From the NCBI GenBank assembly GCA_031281695.1, contig JAITFB010000017.1, forward strand, positions 1 to 32,090: DNA of 32,090 nt, written 5' to 3'. Each line of letters begins with the position of its first letter. The first letter of the stretch is position 1. Under the pieces are notes generated by a model. That model was not told the DNA's origin. It saw nothing but the letters and a program-made list of their open reading frames with translations, and did no database searches. This document shows positions 1,743 through 32,090 of this stretch, piece after piece. Origin of the DNA: Candidatus Servula neotermitis. GTDB lineage: Bacteria > Actinomycetota > Actinomycetes > Actinomycetales > Bifidobacteriaceae. Both the position numbers and the translations under genes were made by a program.

Positions 1743-4061
1743 GTGGACATCACTTGGATTGACTTAATTTGGCCCACATTTGTGACGTTTTTAGTAGTGT
1801 ATTTGCCTGGAGTTTTGGTCGGAATTGCTGGACGTTTACCATGGTCAACCAGCTTGGCTTTCGCGCCGATCTTTAGCATACTTATTTATTGCGTCCCACC
1901 TCTGTTTTTGGAGCCGCTTGGGGTTTGGTGGACTGCCTGGGTACCGGTTATATCGACCGTGGCAGTACTCATTATGGTTGCGGCAACGCTTTGGATAGTG
2001 CAGCGTAAAAGTGCTTTTAAAATTCCGAGCTTGAAACAGGTTTTTTCTCAATCGGAGATTTTTTCTAGAACTAATTGGTTGCTTTTAGCTGGGGCAGGTT
2101 TAGCTTTGAGCGTGTTCATTGTTGTTATGCTGTGGAGCGTGAGCGCGCCTTGGATGGTGACTAACAATTATGATACCGCTTTTCATCTTAACGCGACTGA
2201 GCATATCATTCATGTCGGACGTGCTTCGAGTTTTACCTTACGTGGCCAAATTATGGGGGCGGGGCTAAATTTTTATCCAGCAGCCTGGCATACTTTAGCC
2301 GCAATTGTAGCTACCTTGACGGGAATAGAGATGATGCCAGCTTTCTATGCGCTGATGTTTATTGTTTGCGCAGTAGTTTGGCCTTTATCGTTGGTTTATT
2401 TAACCCGTAAGGTGTTTGGGCCGAATACTATGCGCGAGTTGATTGTTTTCGCGCTTTCAATGATGTTTTGCGGAATTCCCTATCTCATGATCGATTGGGG
2501 ATCCCTCTATCCCACCTTACTGTCTTATTGCATAGCCCCACTCGTGTTAGGCGCAGGATATTCTGCAATTCGAACTCTGGCCTATGGCAATATAAGAACA
2601 AAGAACAAAGAACAAAGAATAAAGAATGACGAAGAAACAGAAATCAGAAGACAGCCTACAGAAGACAGCCTACAGTATCAGGGCGTCAGTACCTCTGGCT
2701 CTGCTGCTGAAGATCATTCTGATCTGTCATCTGACATCTGTCATCTGACATCCGCCAATAAACTTTTACAACCTCTAATCTTGTTCGTCCTCAGCTCGGT
2801 CGCATTGTTTTTCGCTCAACCTAGGACGATTTTTATGGTGTTGGTGGCTCTGCTTCCATATTTAATTGTGCAATTCCCTCAAATTTATTCGAGTTTAATT
2901 AAGTCTCGCGGACCTAAATTTGTCAAAGGATTTTGGATCACTGTAGCTGGACTAGCTGTAATTTTAGTTGGCATGTTGTTATTGTTCATTAAATTAATTT
3001 ATGGACTCTCGCGTCCTATAGAAGACCGACTCAATGGTCCACAAGCCGTTCCGACCAACACCTGGTATGAGTCGTTGTTTTATATGATTTCTATTACAGT
3101 TCGTCGTTCCAGCGGCCCATTACAATCAGTAGATTGGTTGGTTTTGGCGCTTTTATTATTAGGGATAGTCGCTTTAATAGTGTCGAAAAAACAACGTTGG
3201 ATTATTTTCGGATTTTTGGCTGTTGGAGCTCTGTTTGTCATGGCTAGTAGTTTTTCGGATAATTTTTCTAAAATTATGACTGCGCTTTGGTATAAAGACC
3301 AACGACGTATTCAAGTTTTTACTATTGTGATGGCGATTCCCATCATTGCTTATGGTTTAAATTATCTTATCGAATCGATTAGTAAAAGTGCATCCGAGCA
3401 ACTAAAGTTATTGCGTCGGCCGATGATTCTAAGAACTATTGCTGGAACTATGTTATTAGGTTTAGTTGCGAACTCTTTATTGACTCCAGCGGCTTGGGAC
3501 ATGCGGTTTCGACTTTGGGGGACTACAGAAGCTTGGAATTTCGATTCTGGCGAGAATCCCAAACCATTGTTGCTTAGCTTAGATGATTATAAAGTTATTT
3601 ATGAGTTGCCTAAGTATATGGAACCATTTGGAGAACGTTATATTGGCAATCCTTGGGACGGATCTGCTTTCGCCCAAGGTCTGGTTTCGCGGAGTGCTTA
3701 CCTTGCCGCTTTAGATGGAAACTGGAAAATCAAAACGCTTTGGTTGACTCAAAATTGGGAAGTCTTAGCGCAATATGATCAACCCAGCCACTCTATTGAA
3801 TATTATGATTCTATTTGGGGGGATAAAGAATTGGAGGCAATTTATCCAGATTACGATAAATATCGAGCCTGCCGATATTTAGTTCGCGATGGAAAAGTGA
3901 AGTATCTTTTGCATTTAGGTAATAGTATCGAACCTCAGAATATTAAATCGGCGCGTTTTCAAAACATTCAACCTTTGGATAAGGGGTTTGAGGAACTTTA
4001 TCGCTCAAGAAGTTCAGCGCTTTACCGAATCACCGCTTGCGATAATTGGGTAAGTAGTTAG
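1743..4061 (+). CDS. Polytopic membrane protein, DUF6541-like (putative glycosyltransferase/cell-envelope protein)
   Basis: 772 aa with many hydrophobic segments and a globular C-terminus. Interrupted in-frame by a polar repeat-encoded segment (NIRTKNKEQRIKNDEETEIRRQPTEDSLQYQ...). Confidence 0.6.
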   Translation: MDITWIDLIWPTFVTFLVVYLPGVLVGIAGRLPWSTSLAFAPIFSILIYCVPPLFLEPLGVWWTAWVPVISTVAVLIMVAATLWIVQRKSAFKIPSLKQVFSQSEIFSRTNWLLLAGAGLALSVFIVVMLWSVSAPWMVTNNYDTAFHLNATEHIIHVGRASSFTLRGQIMGAGLNFYPAAWHTLAAIVATLTGIEMMPAFYALMFIVCAVVWPLSLVYLTRKVFGPNTMRELIVFALSMMFCGIPYLMIDWGSLYPTLLSYCIAPLVLGAGYSAIRTLAYGNIRTKNKEQRIKNDEETEIRRQPTEDSLQYQGVSTSGSAAEDHSDLSSDICHLTSANKLLQPLILFVLSSVALFFAQPRTIFMVLVALLPYLIVQFPQIYSSLIKSRGPKFVKGFWITVAGLAVILVGMLLLFIKLIYGLSRPIEDRLNGPQAVPTNTWYESLFYMISITVRRSSGPLQSVDWLVLALLLLGIVALIVSKKQRWIIFGFLAVGALFVMASSFSDNFSKIMTALWYKDQRRIQVFTIVMAIPIIAYGLNYLIESISKSASEQLKLLRRPMILRTIAGTMLLGLVANSLLTPAAWDMRFRLWGTTEAWNFDSGENPKPLLLSLDDYKVIYELPKYMEPFGERYIGNPWDGSAFAQGLVSRSAYLAALDGNWKIKTLWLTQNWEVLAQYDQPSHSIEYYDSIWGDKELEAIYPDYDKYRACRYLVRDGKVKYLLHLGNSIEPQNIKSARFQNIQPLDKGFEELYRSRSSALYRITACDNWVSS
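2594..2756. repeat. Heptanucleotide repeat insertion inside a membrane-protein ORF
   Basis: (aagaaca)x3-aagaata-aagaatg, then (agaagacagcctac)x2, then (ctgtcatctgacat)x2. All periods are 7 or 14 nt, and the last two blocks are imperfect inverted repeats of each other. Confidence 0.8.
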
Positions 4062-4123
4062 CTGCTAGCTCAGATTGTTTTACTGAAACATAAGTCGCTC
4101 CAACAGCAAGATTTCATGGTTGC

Positions 4124-4151
4124 TTATTGATTATTGATAACTAATAACTGC
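4124..4151. repeat. Heptanucleotide array overlapping the trxB stop codon
   Basis: ttattga-ttattga-taactaa-taactgc. Confidence 0.6.
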
Positions 4152-5091
4152 GAGCGAAACGAGCGTTAATAAGATCTTTTGCAGCTTTACAACCGGAAGC
4201 TGCGGCGGTAATGGCTTGGCGATAAGTTGGGTCAGTAATGTCGCCAGCTGCATAAATATTTGGATTGGATGTGCGCTGACCTTTGAATAATTTAATGTAG
4301 CCTTGATTATCTAGTTCTACCAGATTTTGAACAACTGAACTGTTAGGAACGTGTCCAATCGCCACAAAAACGCCATCGACTGTCAAATGATTGGAAGCGC
4401 CGATGATTTCCGTGTTCGGTTTGGCTTGTAAGTTTAGGGTAGTTACCGCGTTTTCATTTCCTACAATTTCCTTAACCAAAGCATTTAGAACATAAGAGAT
4501 TTTGGGTTCTTGCTTGACTCGATCTTGTAAAATTTCCGAGGCTCTTAATTGATCACGACGATGGACGATGTAAACTTTTGCGGCGAATTCTGCAAGGAAA
4601 AGAGCTTCTTCTAAAGCTGTATCTCCTCCACCTATAACTGCGACAATTTTGTTTTTAAAGAAAAAACCATCGCAAGTCGCGCAATACGAAACGCCTTTAC
4701 CTGCATATTTATTTTCGCCGACAGCTTTTAGTTTTTTGTAAGTCCCGCCCATGGCCAAAATTAAGGACGAAGTTTCGAATTTTTGGTCGGCGGTTTCGAC
4801 TGTAAATTTATTATTTCCAGTAATCTGAGTGATTTTTTGGGCATTTTCGTAAATTATTTCAGTCCCAAATTTTTCGGCTTGTATTTGCATTTCTCCCATC
4901 AATTTTGGTCCGGAAATCCCTTGGGGAAATCCTGGAAAATTTTCAATCAGGGGAGTGTTCATTAAAGCTCCTCCAGGATTTAAGGAAGAAGCTATGAGAA
5001 GATGTTGGACGTCGGCTCGACCGAGATAAATTGAAGCTGTATATCCTGCCGGTCCTGATCCTATCACGATGGTTTCAAAAAATTTGGCCAT
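4141..5091 (-). CDS. trxB: Thioredoxin-disulfide reductase
   Basis: FAD motif GSGPAGYTASIYLGRA, redox motif CATCDG, NADPH motif GGGDTALEEA, AAGDITD. Confidence 0.95.
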   Translation of the reverse strand: MAKFFETIVIGSGPAGYTASIYLGRADVQHLLIASSLNPGGALMNTPLIENFPGFPQGISGPKLMGEMQIQAEKFGTEIIYENAQKITQITGNNKFTVETADQKFETSSLILAMGGTYKKLKAVGENKYAGKGVSYCATCDGFFFKNKIVAVIGGGDTALEEALFLAEFAAKVYIVHRRDQLRASEILQDRVKQEPKISYVLNALVKEIVGNENAVTTLNLQAKPNTEIIGASNHLTVDGVFVAIGHVPNSSVVQNLVELDNQGYIKLFKGQRTSNPNIYAAGDITDPTYRQAITAAASGCKAAKDLINARFARSY

Positions 5092-8080: not shown

Positions 8081-9718
8081 CTATTCCCACTCGATAGTAC
8101 CAGGCGGTTTAGAAGTTATATCTAACACAACTCGATTGATTTCTGGAACTTGATTAGTAACTTGAGTAGCAATTTTGGAAAGTAGTTGGTGAGGTAATTC
8201 GGAAAAATCGGCAGTCATAGCGTCTTCGGAATCGACGGGTCTAATCACTAAAGGATAACCATAGGTTCTGCCGTCCCCTTGAACTCCCACGCTACGAACT
8301 TTAGATAAGAGGACTATTGGGCATTGCCAAATCCGATCATCGAATCCAGCCTCGGTTAAGATAGAGCGTACGATTGAATCGGCTTTTCGTAAAATTTTCA
8401 ACTTAGTTTTATCGACATCTCCAATAATTCGAATGGCTAAACCTGGTCCGGGAAAAGGTTGGCGATTGACAATTGACTCAGGTACGCCTAATTCGCGACC
8501 GATATTGCGTACCTCGTCTTTGAATAAGTCTCGCAAAGGTTCAACTAATTTAAATTGTAAATCTTGAGGTAGTCCGCCGACATTATGATGGCTTTTAATA
8601 TTGTCGCCTACTCCGCCAGATTCCACCACATCAGGATACAAAGTTCCTTGAACTAAATATTTAATTGGTCGATTAGCTAGATCCGATCTGACCACCCTTT
8701 CGAACTCTCGAATGAACTTTTCACCGATGATTTTGCGTTTACATTCCGGATCTTCAATTTCTTTGAGTGCGGATAAAAAAACCTCTTCGCTATTAGTAGT
8801 AATCAAGTTCAGGTTCAAAGCTTGAGCGAAATCTTGTTCTACTTGTTCGCGTTCGCCTGATCGTAGTAGCCCATGGTCGACAAATATGCAAATTAATCGA
8901 TCGCCGATTGCTCGGTTGACTAGCGCTGCAGCGACCGCAGAATCTACCCCTCCCGAAAGTCCACAAATTGCTTTATTTTCAGGCCCGATTTGAGCACGGA
9001 TGTCTTTTAGTTTTTGTTCGATGATATTAGCTGGAGTCCAGTCAGCTTGCAGTTTGGCCTTTTTGAATAAGAAATTCCTAAAAACCTCTATGCCTGCTTC
9101 AGTATGTTTTACTTCAGGATGAAATTGAACGCCGTAAATTTTCAAGTCGTCATTTTCTATAGCTTCAACTGGCACCAATTCCGAACTGGCTGTACACTTA
9201 AATCCAGCCGGCGCTTTGGTAACACTTACCCGATGGCTCATCCATACAACCGCTTTGCGGTTAACAGGTAGGAATTGAGAATTAGGAATTAGTTGTGTTG
9301 GATTACCGTCAGCATTAGAGCCGCCAGCTGCTTCGCCGAGGATTTCGTTATTGTTAATTGTTCTACCAGTAGGAATCAGAGTTGAACCGTTGGTGGTAAT
9401 CAGAGTTTTGCCAAATTCACCATCGCTCAAGTTAGCCACAGTTCCTCCAAATACTTGAGCAATTTTTTGGAAACCATAGCATAAACCTAAAGTCGGAATT
9501 CCTAAATGCAAAATTCGCTCATCAAAATTCGGCGCATCGAAATCTAACACGTTCGCTGGTCCGCCAGTCAAAATCAAGGCTGCTGGATCAATTTTTTGAA
9601 TTTGTTCCAAAGAAACATCGTAACGCACAATTTCGGAATACACGCCTAATTCTCTGATTCGTCGCGCAATCAGTTGAGTATATTGCGCTCCAAAATCAAT
9701 AATTAAAACCGGTCTCAT
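8081..9718 (-). CDS. guaA: GMP synthase (glutamine-hydrolysing)
   Basis: GATase motif GLCYGFQ, ATP-PPase motif [16 protein letters not shown]-terminal [12 protein letters not shown]. Polar insertion near residues 118-155. Confidence 0.97.
9270..9292. repeat. Heptanucleotide array inside guaA
   Basis: aggaatt-gagaatt-aggaatt-ag, coding for part of the extra loop [11 protein letters not shown]. Confidence 0.65.
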
Positions 9719-15922: not shown

Positions 15923-17374
15923 CTACGAAGTAGCAGCTGCTTCCACTTGAGCTTCTGCAGCAGCCTCCTTTTCAGCCATACCATTAGCCATAATCACGAA
16001 GACTGACCAAATCAAAACTGAAATAGCTAAGTTAATCGCGGCCAAAACCGCAGCCGTCCATTGGAAGCCAGTCGCTATGAATGCGCCGATAATAGGAGGA
16101 GCAATCCAAGGTAACTGAATAATGGTTGGCGGTACGATACCAGACATGGTAGCTAGCCAGGCGATTACCGCTAAGATAGGCGGAACCAAAATCCATGGGA
16201 TAAGGAAAACGGGGTTCAAAACAATAGGAAGACCGAATACCATTGGCTCATTGATTTCGAAAACGCCCATGGGAGCTGCTAATGCGGCGATTGTTCGATA
16301 TTCTTTTCTCTTAGAGAAGATGAAAATCGCGATAATCAAACCGATGCTGGCCCCTGAGCCGCCTAGATACACGAAAGCTTCCCATGAACCGGAAGTCCAT
16401 TGGTAAGGCAAATCAGCGTAGTTCTGGTTAGTAGCCCAAGCGTCCATGTTGGAAGTCAAAGCGGTAAGATATACGCCACTCATGACTGGCGCCATTACGT
16501 TCGAACCATGAATTCCGAAGAACCAGAACAATTCGACCATGAAGGTGACCAAAATGACCCAACCAAGACCTTGCGAAGCATTCAAGAACGGAGTTTGGAT
16601 GAATTTCGTAATCATATCTCCGAGCGAACCAGGGATTTCAGCATTAGCTGTATGTAATTCTCCTAACGCATAAGCCAAAATGCCAGCTCCGAATAAAACG
16701 GCTGTACCTGGAATCAAGGCCCTGAAAGCGTCCGAAACTGCAGGCGGAACGGAATCTGGAAGCGTGATGGTTAACTTGCTCTTCATCAATTTCGAGAAAA
16801 TGATAGTGAAAATTAAGCCGACAATCAAAGCTGTGAATAAACCTCCAGCATTCAAATAACTAACGTTCAAGTTACCCCAAGCGCCCAAAGACAAAGTCCC
16901 AGCTTCAGCGTCAACCACACCGCCCGACTCAGTAATCATGTCAAGAGCTTGTTGACTAACTAAAGTAGGATCGGCGAAAGTTAAGCTAGCGTTGGCCGTT
17001 TGCGGGGTTACAATAATGAAAGCTGAAGTAGAGATCAGACCTCCCGCCAAAGCGGTAACTCCGTAAGCTTTGGCTATTTGGTAACCGATTGCAAACGAGA
17101 AAACTAATGCTAACATCGCGATAGTTCCCCACCAGACGTTTCCGTCGATGGCGATCAGCCATTGGAACGCTTGGGTAACCTGAGGTAGGTTAAGGGCGTT
17201 CTCGGCCATAACATCGCGCACAATTGCGTTGAACAATACTGCAAACGAGCCTGCCATAGTGATGGGCAAGATTGCAATAAATGCGTCACGAATGGCAACC
17301 AAATGCTTTTGGGAACCAATTCGCGCTGCTATCGGGACGAAATGTTCTTCCATCCAAGCAGTAAATTTTTCCAT
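15923..17374 (-). CDS. PTS lactose/cellobiose-family IIC permease
   Basis: MEKFTAWMEEHFVPIAARIGSQKHLVAIRDAFIAILPITMAGSFAVLFN, FFGIHGSNVMAPVM, ALAAPMGVFEINEPMVFGLPIVLNP. Confidence 0.95.
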   Translation of the reverse strand: MEKFTAWMEEHFVPIAARIGSQKHLVAIRDAFIAILPITMAGSFAVLFNAIVRDVMAENALNLPQVTQAFQWLIAIDGNVWWGTIAMLALVFSFAIGYQIAKAYGVTALAGGLISTSAFIIVTPQTANASLTFADPTLVSQQALDMITESGGVVDAEAGTLSLGAWGNLNVSYLNAGGLFTALIVGLIFTIIFSKLMKSKLTITLPDSVPPAVSDAFRALIPGTAVLFGAGILAYALGELHTANAEIPGSLGDMITKFIQTPFLNASQGLGWVILVTFMVELFWFFGIHGSNVMAPVMSGVYLTALTSNMDAWATNQNYADLPYQWTSGSWEAFVYLGGSGASIGLIIAIFIFSKRKEYRTIAALAAPMGVFEINEPMVFGLPIVLNPVFLIPWILVPPILAVIAWLATMSGIVPPTIIQLPWIAPPIIGAFIATGFQWTAAVLAAINLAISVLIWSVFVIMANGMAEKEAAAEAQVEAAATS

Positions 17375-17391
17375 GGATAATTCTCCTTTTC

Positions 17392-17700
17392 TTATTCTGG
17401 AATCAGCGAGAGTGCTTGTTCTAACACTTTCTCGCCATTCATCTGGCCATATTGGACCATATCAATTACGCCTACGGGTTTTTCGTTGTTTACCCGTTCT
17501 TTCATTTTATCCAGCAAATAGCGAACTTGCGGTCCAAGCAAGACAACGTCAGCTTCTTGGGCAGCTTCTGTGGAGTTAGCATCTCCGACCGCCCAAATTT
17601 TAGCATCGACTCCTTTGGCCTCAGCCGCATTTTGCATTCTTTTTACCAATGCACTGGTGGACATCCCAGCAGTGCAAACTAGCAGTATGTTTTTTGTCAT
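17392..17700 (-). CDS. PTS lactose/cellobiose-family IIB component, copy 1
   Basis: MTKNILLVCTAGMSTSALVKRMQ, phospho-Cys loop CTAGMSTS. Confidence 0.95.
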   Translation of the reverse strand: MTKNILLVCTAGMSTSALVKRMQNAAEAKGVDAKIWAVGDANSTEAAQEADVVLLGPQVRYLLDKMKERVNNEKPVGVIDMVQYGQMNGEKVLEQALSLIPE

Positions 17701-17720
17701 ATTCTCCTATACGGGTTAAT

Positions 17721-17748
17721 CTTATATCACTGTTTAGGGCAAAAACAA
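17721..17748 (-). promoter_or_regulatory. Predicted promoter of IIB copy 1 (TTGTTT-16-TATAAG)
   Basis: Shared with the IIB copy 2 promoter: same 16-nt spacing, GTGATATAA core, and identical TATAGGAGAATATGAC leader/start. Confidence 0.5.
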
Positions 17749-17950
17749 AAATATTTCACACTAAACTAAAAAAATTTTTGCATTTTTAACTTGAGGATAA
17801 GATATCTAACCGAAACGTTAATTTCATTAGTAAAGTAATTAGAGAAAACGGGCTCGAAAACGCCTGCTAGGTCAGGCTTTAGCTATATTGATCGTCGGTT
17901 TTAAATTTCCAGCAACTGGTCATACCTAGTTACTCTTCGGATGGATTCTC

Positions 17951-18265
17951 TTATTGATTTGATTCTGGCAGCAACGCAAGTGCTTGTTCTAAAACTTTCT
18001 CGCCATTCATTTGGCCGTATTGCATCATGTCAATCACGGCTACAGGCTTACCGTCAGCCCGTTCCTTCATTTTATTTAGCAAAAAACGGATTTGTGGTCC
18101 AATTAAAATCACATCAGCTTCTTTAGCTGCCTCGGTTGAGCGTACGTCCGCTACTGCCCAAATCCGCGTGTCAATTCCTCGAGTATCGGCGGCCTTTTGC
18201 ATCCTTTTAACTAACACGCTGCTGGACATACCGCCACTGCAAACTAATAAAATATTTTTTGTCAT
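17951..18265 (-). CDS. PTS lactose/cellobiose-family IIB component, copy 2 (tandem paralog)
   Basis: MTKNILLVCSGGMSSSVLVKRMQ; closely similar to the 17392-17700 product. Confidence 0.93.
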   Translation of the reverse strand: MTKNILLVCSGGMSSSVLVKRMQKAADTRGIDTRIWAVADVRSTEAAKEADVILIGPQIRFLLNKMKERADGKPVAVIDMMQYGQMNGEKVLEQALALLPESNQ

Positions 18266-18285
18266 ATTCTCCTATACTTCTGAAT

Positions 18286-18313
18286 TTTATATCACCGAAT
18301 CATGTAAAAGCAA
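18286..18313 (-). promoter_or_regulatory. Predicted promoter of IIB copy 2 (TTGCTT-16-TATAAA)
   Basis: Duplicate of the promoter at 17721-17748. Confidence 0.5.
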
Positions 18314-18423
18314 AAATTTTTCACAGGTAATTTTGCTGGTTTCGCACGCGACAACTAACGATTATTGATCCTAGACTTACCACACCAGACCCTTTAGCTC
18401 TCTGACTCAGATTTTAAAATCGA

Positions 18424-26137: not shown

Positions 26138-26473
26138 GTTGAATCCTTTCAAAGTCAGTTTAACATATTAATATGACGCTTTGGCCTGAGTTTTTTGTCT
26201 TTCGGCTCAATGAGTTTGAGAGGATTTTGCTCAGTACAATCTTTTATTGGCGAACAATTGAACAATTTGTAAACGGTCAGCATTGTCGCATGGGCTTATT
26301 GCACTTCGGTTGGAATTCCTCTTTAACTCCAAGCTGATTATTGGGGCCACATTCAGGAGTAAGGCAATTTTTCGCTTTGACAGTTTAACTTTATTCCAGT
26401 ACTAATCGGTCAGTTTTCTTTCAGCAATTATCAAACGCCTGTAAGATAAAACTATAGGACTCCTTTCGTATAA

Positions 26474-26500
26474 TAGCAGTTTACTTTTTGTAAACTGCTA
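26474..26500. repeat. Perfect 11-bp inverted repeat (hairpin)
   Basis: TAGCAGTTTAC-ttttt-GTAAACTGCTA, with an outer TAGGAC...GTCCTA pair. Confidence 0.7.
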
Positions 26501-26577
26501 GGTGTCCTAGTTCAAGTACAATTTAGGGGCTCTTGTCCGTTTCAATCAAACCATAATAATTCACTAGTATATTTGTT

Positions 26578-26670
26578 TTATGAAATTCCCGCCCTCGCTA
26601 TGATCATTTGCTCCATATCGTTAGTTAGTCATTAAAGTCAGAACGATCACTTCTTGCTTTTGGGCGTCGG
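26578..26670 (-). pseudogene. Decayed copy of the 3' end of the ORF at 29708-30160
   Basis: ttatgaaattcccgccctcgctatgatcatttgctccat...ttagttagtcattaaagtcagaac closely matches 29708-29800. The translated remnant is QKQEVIVLTLMTN*, then MEQMIIARAGIS*. Confidence 0.65.
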
Positions 26671-29613: not shown

Positions 29614-29707
29614 TTCAATCACTGCCCCGCGCGTGAGGACTGGAAGAATTTATGCGTTCTTCCACCTGCTCATAACCCAAACTTGTAAACTTTAGAGTAA
29701 ATAGATG

Positions 29708-30160
29708 TTACGAAATTTCGACCCTCTCTATGAGCATTTGCCCCATTCGGTAGTTAGTCACTAAAGTCAGAACTACCAGCTCTTGCTTTTGGACATTCAC
29801 ATATTGAATTACGGAATTGAATGTCCCAAACGAGGACACCGTTACACTGAGGTAACTTTGTCGAAGATGGTTTGAGCTCAAATTTGGTTTGGGGATCAAA
29901 GCTCGAAGACTTTGCAGACCTTTGTAACTCGTACGGTCTTTTATAGCCGTAATATTTATGGTTCCGTCTATTACCCGGAGGGTAACTTTCGCTAAATTGG
30001 ATAATTCTCCAATTATTCGGTCGCGGATGTCAGGGGAACTAAGCATTTCGCTGATTTGTTCTCCTTGGAAAAAACCATCGGAAATAGCATCTGAATTATT
30101 TCTTAATTCTTCCGAATTTATTCCATGGATTATTGTGATACGATGATTAATTTTAATCAT
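29708..30160 (-). CDS. Hypothetical protein (150 aa)
   Basis: Uninterrupted ORF. TACTAT plus 7 nt plus ATG matches the local leaderless pattern. A decayed homolog of its 3' end lies at ~26578. Confidence 0.5.
   Translation of the reverse strand: MIKINHRITIIHGINSEELRNNSDAISDGFFQGEQISEMLSSPDIRDRIIGELSNLAKVTLRVIDGTINITAIKDRTSYKGLQSLRALIPKPNLSSNHLRQSYLSVTVSSFGTFNSVIQYVNVQKQELVVLTLVTNYRMGQMLIERVEIS

Positions 30161-30652: not shown

Positions 30653-32090
<1,438 letters not shown>

Follow-up and report, generated by a model that had tools for sequence, protein, structure and literature searches.

A probable dispersed protein-coding repeat element, framed by heptanucleotide arrays, in the genome of Candidatus Servula neotermitis

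The window analysed here, the whole 32,090 nt stretch of Servula neotermitis DNA, encodes a multi-pass membrane protein of the DUF6541 family. The gene is interrupted by a block of short repeats, and a second gene of the window, read from Pfam matches as guaA, also carries an insertion. The coordinates are listed in Table 1. A first-pass annotation had described three repeat blocks with 7- or 14-nt periods in the DUF6541 gene, the last two forming an inverted pair, and proposed that they lengthen a loop of the membrane protein. TRF recovers exactly those three blocks, in frame within the ORF.

Table 1. Positions of the features in the window.
Feature	Position	Strand	Basis
DUF6541 (PF20176) host gene, 772-aa multi-pass membrane protein	1743..4061	+	ORF; Pfam E 4.9e-94
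Entire predicted in-frame insertion	2594..2756	+	Borders approximate, +/- about 10 nt; linker length versus 12 homologues; AlphaFold
Left outer module, (AAGAACA)4.7, then ATGACGAA	2594..2626	+	TRF, 96% match
Left arm, CAG-heptads (CAGAAGACAGCCTA)2.2	2645..2675	+	TRF 14-mer x2.2, 100%
Non-repetitive conserved core, peptide YQGVSTSGSAAEDHSD	2676..2721	+	Alignment of eight coding copies; pattern search
Right arm, inverted CAG-heptads (ATCTGTCATCTGAC)2.2, peptide LSSDICHLT	2722..2752	+	TRF 14-mer x2.2, 100%
GuaA putative insertion, core-like segment and heptad array (9269-9292)	9260..9382	-	ORF 8084-9718, minus strand

We compared the linker between the YPTLLSY and FAQPRTIF motifs of the DUF6541 protein with its counterparts in related genomes. 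Here it spans 101 residues, against 38-56 in 12 homologues, an excess of roughly 45-63 residues. None of the 12 homologues carries the segment, so the polar loop is not a shared feature of the family and the proposed lengthening holds. In the AlphaFold model, built on an alignment of 11 homologues, residues 307-336 have pLDDT values below 50 and are bounded by helices on either side. Taken together, linker lengths and model indicate that the block is an in-frame insertion of about 45-60 residues in a loop between membrane helices. The exact borders are approximate because there is no close relative without the insert for comparison. A search of a broad genome contig collection gave no confirmed DUF6541 homologue.

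The inverted pair is real. The two arms pair with each other across a 46-nt spacer, with an RNA MFE of -41.1 kcal/mol (z -2.6) that was equalled by 1 of 200 shuffles. Folding the element alone gave a z of -3.0.

Other repeats are present in the window. Directly 3' of the DUF6541 gene, self-BLAST and alignment identified a dispersed intergenic repeat (4053-4164, plus strand; ATTGTTTTACTG...GCAAGATTT) with heptads at 4120-4138. Relatives of this repeat lie on three other sampled contigs (L174, L160 and L164), and some copies have GCGAGCGAAACGAGCG-like ends. Two adjacent stretches of ~400 nt (17360-17760 and 17928-18325) are 72% identical and are not contained in any single called ORF. Dispersed repeats of 100-140 nt at 26370-26509, 26566-26663 and 29696-29792 are outside called ORFs; the first recurs at L167 19608-19746. 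The last 119 bases (31972-32090) recur unchanged, but inverted, at the end of contig C13 (L160 16928-17046); the assembly probably overlaps there at a repeat.

The window's own genome (G000) is 1.12 Mb in 101 contigs and 77% complete. A 551-base query spanning the segment matched 12 stretches of G000 at E<=0.001. One is the segment itself and the eleven others match the inserted part only. A consensus query raised the number to 29 at E<=10, of which the weakest matches consist of heptad arrays alone. The core pattern occurs clearly at eight places, two of them belonging to a single copy divided between overlapping contig ends, and a peptide query added a degenerate copy in PheS. About 15 copies, each of roughly 100-200 nt, are therefore dispersed at unlinked sites. 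The segment had first been described as a heptad-built cassette inside an actinobacterial gene. The heptad build, the genic setting and the host group stand, but the segment is better described as one copy of a dispersed composite element than as a lone tandem cassette.

Eight copies fall in long ORFs, all in one frame and orientation. The encoded proteins are DUF6541, Obg, PolA, XerD, IspF, carbamate kinase (ArcC), PheS and GatA. The GatA copy sits at the C-terminal end and the other seven are internal. Pfam confirmed the host families, with domains recognisable either side of the insert; gene names finer than the Pfam assignment (XerD rather than XerC, for instance) are our interpretation of the sequences. 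About seven further copies are intergenic (contigs C44, C59, C23/C35, C74, C15, C69 and C10).

The copies are built around a core of ~50 nt. CAGANGN or CAGCYTA heptads precede the core and CATCTGN heptads follow it, the two arms being inverted relatives of each other. Left arms related to that of the DUF6541 copy are found in the Obg, PolA, XerD, IspF and PheS copies. In the right outer region, the PolA, XerD, ArcC and PheS copies have in common a GATAAACCAATCACTAAT-like sequence and CTAATCA-type heptads. The left outer region consists of AAAGAAC or AAAAAAC heptads ending in ATGACGAA, and occurs in the DUF6541 and ArcC copies and, with one change, in the intergenic C15 copy. By this comparison, the DUF6541 copy appears to combine two left modules.

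We examined the insertions in conserved enzymes, each of which is deduced from homologues in other genera rather than from an empty site in the same species or genus. XerD carries 41 additional residues at a single position in its N-terminal SAM-like domain; about 20 homologues lack them, and the Pfam match to the domain is split at the insert. In the AlphaFold model, pLDDT values are below 50 for residues 46-86, whereas most of the catalytic domain is modelled with confidence. Residues R192, K216, H288, R291, H314 and Y323, which we take to be the tyrosine-recombinase active site, are in invariant alignment columns. PheS has about 70 more residues than its homologues between QDTFY and RTHTS. 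In Obg, a loop that is variable and shorter in relatives is longer by roughly 15-25 residues. IspF is interrupted just past the first strand, with Pfam and solved structures aligning from residue 63 or later. Heptad inserts also occur in proteins that we read from Pfam matches as MnmA, FolD, GpsA, GuaA, NadE, PheT, GyrB and PriA. For GuaA residues 113-153, there are only 7 counterparts in the solved GMP synthase 2ywb. The NadE, GpsA, FolD and PheT inserts are heptads without a core.

The GyrB and PriA inserts have a different core. Self-comparison of the sample found 159 nt, 79% identical, common to the gyrB and priA ORFs (L165 8572-8729 and L172 1409-1567). The shared stretch is read in the same frame in both genes and is adjoined by heptad arrays in both. 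In the corresponding region, GyrB is about 56 residues longer than solved gyrases (120 residues, against 64 in one of them).

Heptad arrays are abundant in G000. The sample comprised 349 kb in 21 stretches (G+C 42.6%), partly picked for element copies, and 81 of its 159 tandem arrays have a period of 7, 14 or 21. At a TRF score of >=45, there were 45 such arrays, against a mean of 0.65 and a maximum of 3 in 20 dinucleotide shuffles (~70-fold). ORFs make up about 90% of the sample and hold 49 of the 81 arrays; genes are under-represented for heptad arrays, yet far from free of them. Since 7 is not a multiple of 3, a stop-free heptad array encodes an identical cyclic heptapeptide in all frames, which helps to explain the survival of such arrays in genes. 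Two period-21 arrays (L163 10034 and L166 9919) resemble ordinary coiled-coil coding repeats.

The dominance of period 7 raises the possibility that the arrays are heptanucleotide microsatellites, of the STRR/SSR type, that grow in place by slippage. No mobile element would be needed, and sequences would be shared only because few heptads are stable or free of stops. In many bacteria, heptads outnumber the other long SSR classes, and polymerase slippage has been proposed (PMC4679880, PMC4692102). This model may hold for heptad-only inserts, and many of the inserts, including those of NadE, GpsA, FolD and PheT, have no core. However, the ~50-nt core of the main element is not a tandem repeat and is common to unlinked copies; slippage cannot transfer a core between contigs. 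The same applies to the GyrB/PriA core. Given the shared core, pure slippage is excluded as the origin of the main element, and as a general account we consider slippage unlikely.

Among 189 genomes of the family, no convincing copy of the element was found, with three single weak partial matches outside G000. Peptide patterns, limited to two short ones, were run against 84,980 species genomes and gave 37 matches, none confirmed; the underlying alignment (A4) has three rows, with a few residues set to the consensus in two. A tblastn search of phages and plasmids with the insert peptide found none. A single pattern match on viral contig L090 has no arms and was taken as chance. For heptad arrays in general, samples of about 20 kb from other family genomes mostly have 0-10 period-7 arrays per 100 kb, with one at 20. 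In 126 kb of the sister genome, G008, the density is 34 per 100 kb, compared with 0-6 in G003, G018 and G004.

G008 also has an insert in PheS (L198). The insert is in frame, occupies the same loop as that of G000 and is built of GTGCGGAATTC-type repeats. This sequence has 29 matches in the 126 kb of G008, against none in 349 kb of G000. By sequence comparison, G000 and G008 fill one permissive PheS site with unrelated repeated DNA. A similar case, in which WPE and RPE-4 coincide in one gene, has been described (PMC3767692). Further GTGCGGAATTC-type repeats of G008 are at L192 8751-8814 and L217 6911-6945. G008 also has very long heptad arrays (L223 12562-12855 and L219 8254-8475), for example TAAGGAG over about 290 nt.

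An alternative is that the element is a functional peptide module. A tag or linker, selected for binding, localisation or proteolysis, would then have spread for its amino-acid sequence. All eight coding copies do share one frame and orientation, and the hydrophilic peptide is conserved. Yet the sense strand of the element has one long stop-free frame, encoding this short peptide, and more stops in the other frames, so a single frame is expected anyway. Differences per codon pair at positions 1, 2 and 3 were 0.38, 0.32 and 0.36 in six ungapped coding copies, a small sample of non-independent sequences. Positions 1 and 2 have not accumulated fewer changes than position 3, and hence the insert peptide does not look conserved as protein. 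The lack of protein-level constraint and the intergenic copies argue against a selected tag. So do the lack of a pathway common to the host proteins and the unrelated DNA in the same PheS loop of the sister genus. We regard a peptide module as highly improbable.

The hairpin could instead act in the transcript, by attenuation, processing, translational bypass or excision, with the element untranslated as such. Of the 11 copies folded, those of DUF6541, PolA, GatA, C59 and C74 gave hairpins more stable than shuffles (z -2.0 to -4.9), as did C23 weakly. Conversely, there was no structure excess for the Obg, XerD, IspF, C44 and PheS copies, so that a stable hairpin like that of the DUF6541 copy is a property of about half of the copies only. 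Furthermore, the seven internal copies are all stop-free and in frame on both sides, which neither excision nor bypass needs. The chance expectation for frame is (1/3)^7, about 5e-4, although copies in long ORFs are easier to recognise as genic. The kept frames thus argue against excision, and we give an RNA-level role scant credence. An assembly or binning artefact can practically be discounted: the assembly is in 101 contigs, some of them with terminal repeats and overlaps of 119 bp (C23/C35 and C13/C92), but the copies are deep within contigs and individually diverged, and host domains continue in frame either side.

We conclude that the block in the DUF6541 gene is probably one copy of a non-autonomous, dispersed, protein-coding repeat element, and that such copies are neutral or selfish coding insertions. 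The DNA of the element would spread as selfish or neutral DNA, and such a spread, with survival where loops tolerate it, would account for the shared core, the intergenic copies, the unconstrained peptide and the kept frames. Replication slippage may lengthen the heptad arrays, which could supply short homologous stretches through which sequence is copied or recombined from one site to another. For the movement itself, we propose recombination or template switching among the arrays. Matches to the Y1 transposase/RAYT family (PF01797) were absent from G000, at 77% completeness, as were matches to reverse transcriptase (PF00078), which bears on retrons, group II introns and DGRs. The only insertions to survive selection would be those that keep the reading frame and end up as disordered loops on the protein surface; we assume that the host proteins are translated with the insert.

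Weak selection in an intracellular symbiont may let the insertions persist. Servula neotermitis is one of the termite-flagellate Bifidobacteriaceae and is represented by one genome of 1.10 Mb and 42.03% G+C (PMC11707648). Its intracellular life is presumed from its relatives. Transposable elements are reported to be absent from the genomes of this group (PMC11707648). Servula and Nutricula are also reported to be without the phosphoketolase Xfp (PMC11707648), and Xfp was not found in G000 (77% complete).

A broader proposal, which we advance tentatively and with the balance somewhat against it, is that heptad DNA is a generator of new protein segments in one actinobacterial endosymbiont lineage. 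Unrelated heptad-bounded cores would have entered the loops of essential enzymes independently, and sister genera would have filled one loop with unrelated repeats. The origin would be independent of the Rickettsiales, and the spread transposase-free and heptad-dependent. To our knowledge, in-frame repeats in conserved bacterial proteins have been documented chiefly in Rickettsia and Wolbachia. If our reading is true, a second and unrelated case, in another phylum and in a reduced, intracellular-looking genome, would suggest that decaying genomes repeatedly gain protein sequence in this way. It would also bear on the old puzzle of why 7-nt repeats build up in bacteria, the arrays here framing shared cores that can be traced from gene to gene. 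Annotators should note that inserts of this kind break up domain matches and create spurious similarity among unrelated proteins.

Bacterial MITEs and REPINs depend for their movement on a transposase or RAYT that acts in trans. The element resembles them in being small, non-autonomous and multicopy with inverted arms. It differs in that no RAYT was found in G000 and no sharp terminal inverted repeats are defined. The STRRs of cyanobacteria, TAACTGA of Beggiatoaceae (PMC4679880) and GGGGATT/GGGAATC of Nostoc and Xanthomonas (PMC4692102) have, like the arrays here, related units of seven nt in short arrays across the genome. The likeness to STRRs, noted from the outset, holds as an analogy: 7-nt arrays are in excess. 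Those systems are mainly intergenic or at protein ends, whereas the arrays here frame a dispersed, non-repetitive conserved core that is in frame within the domains of many unrelated housekeeping proteins. The element is not repeat-only, and 49 of 81 arrays are in ORFs rather than mostly intergenic.

The nearest analogue would instead be the protein-coding palindromic elements of Rickettsia and Wolbachia, RPE and WPE (Ogata et al., 2000, as described in PMC2229807 and PMC3767692). Set beside those descriptions, the element is similarly a dispersed repeat of 100-150 bp, partly palindromic in those copies whose arms still pair, and occurs in frame in genes for conserved proteins as well as between genes. 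The genomes concerned are likewise reduced and belong to intracellular bacteria, as presumed for Servula neotermitis, and different families strike the same gene region in related genera. Conversely, this element is in a different phylum, its arms are tandem heptad arrays, it is a composite of several heptad families and, unlike in RPEs, the hairpin is lost in about half of the copies. An RPE insert in guanylate kinase is translated and tolerated, and the Rickettsia elements have been proposed to spread neutrally or selfishly and to survive where loops are permissive (PMC2229807). The element of Servula neotermitis would be analogous to the Rickettsia palindromic elements and apparently independent of them.
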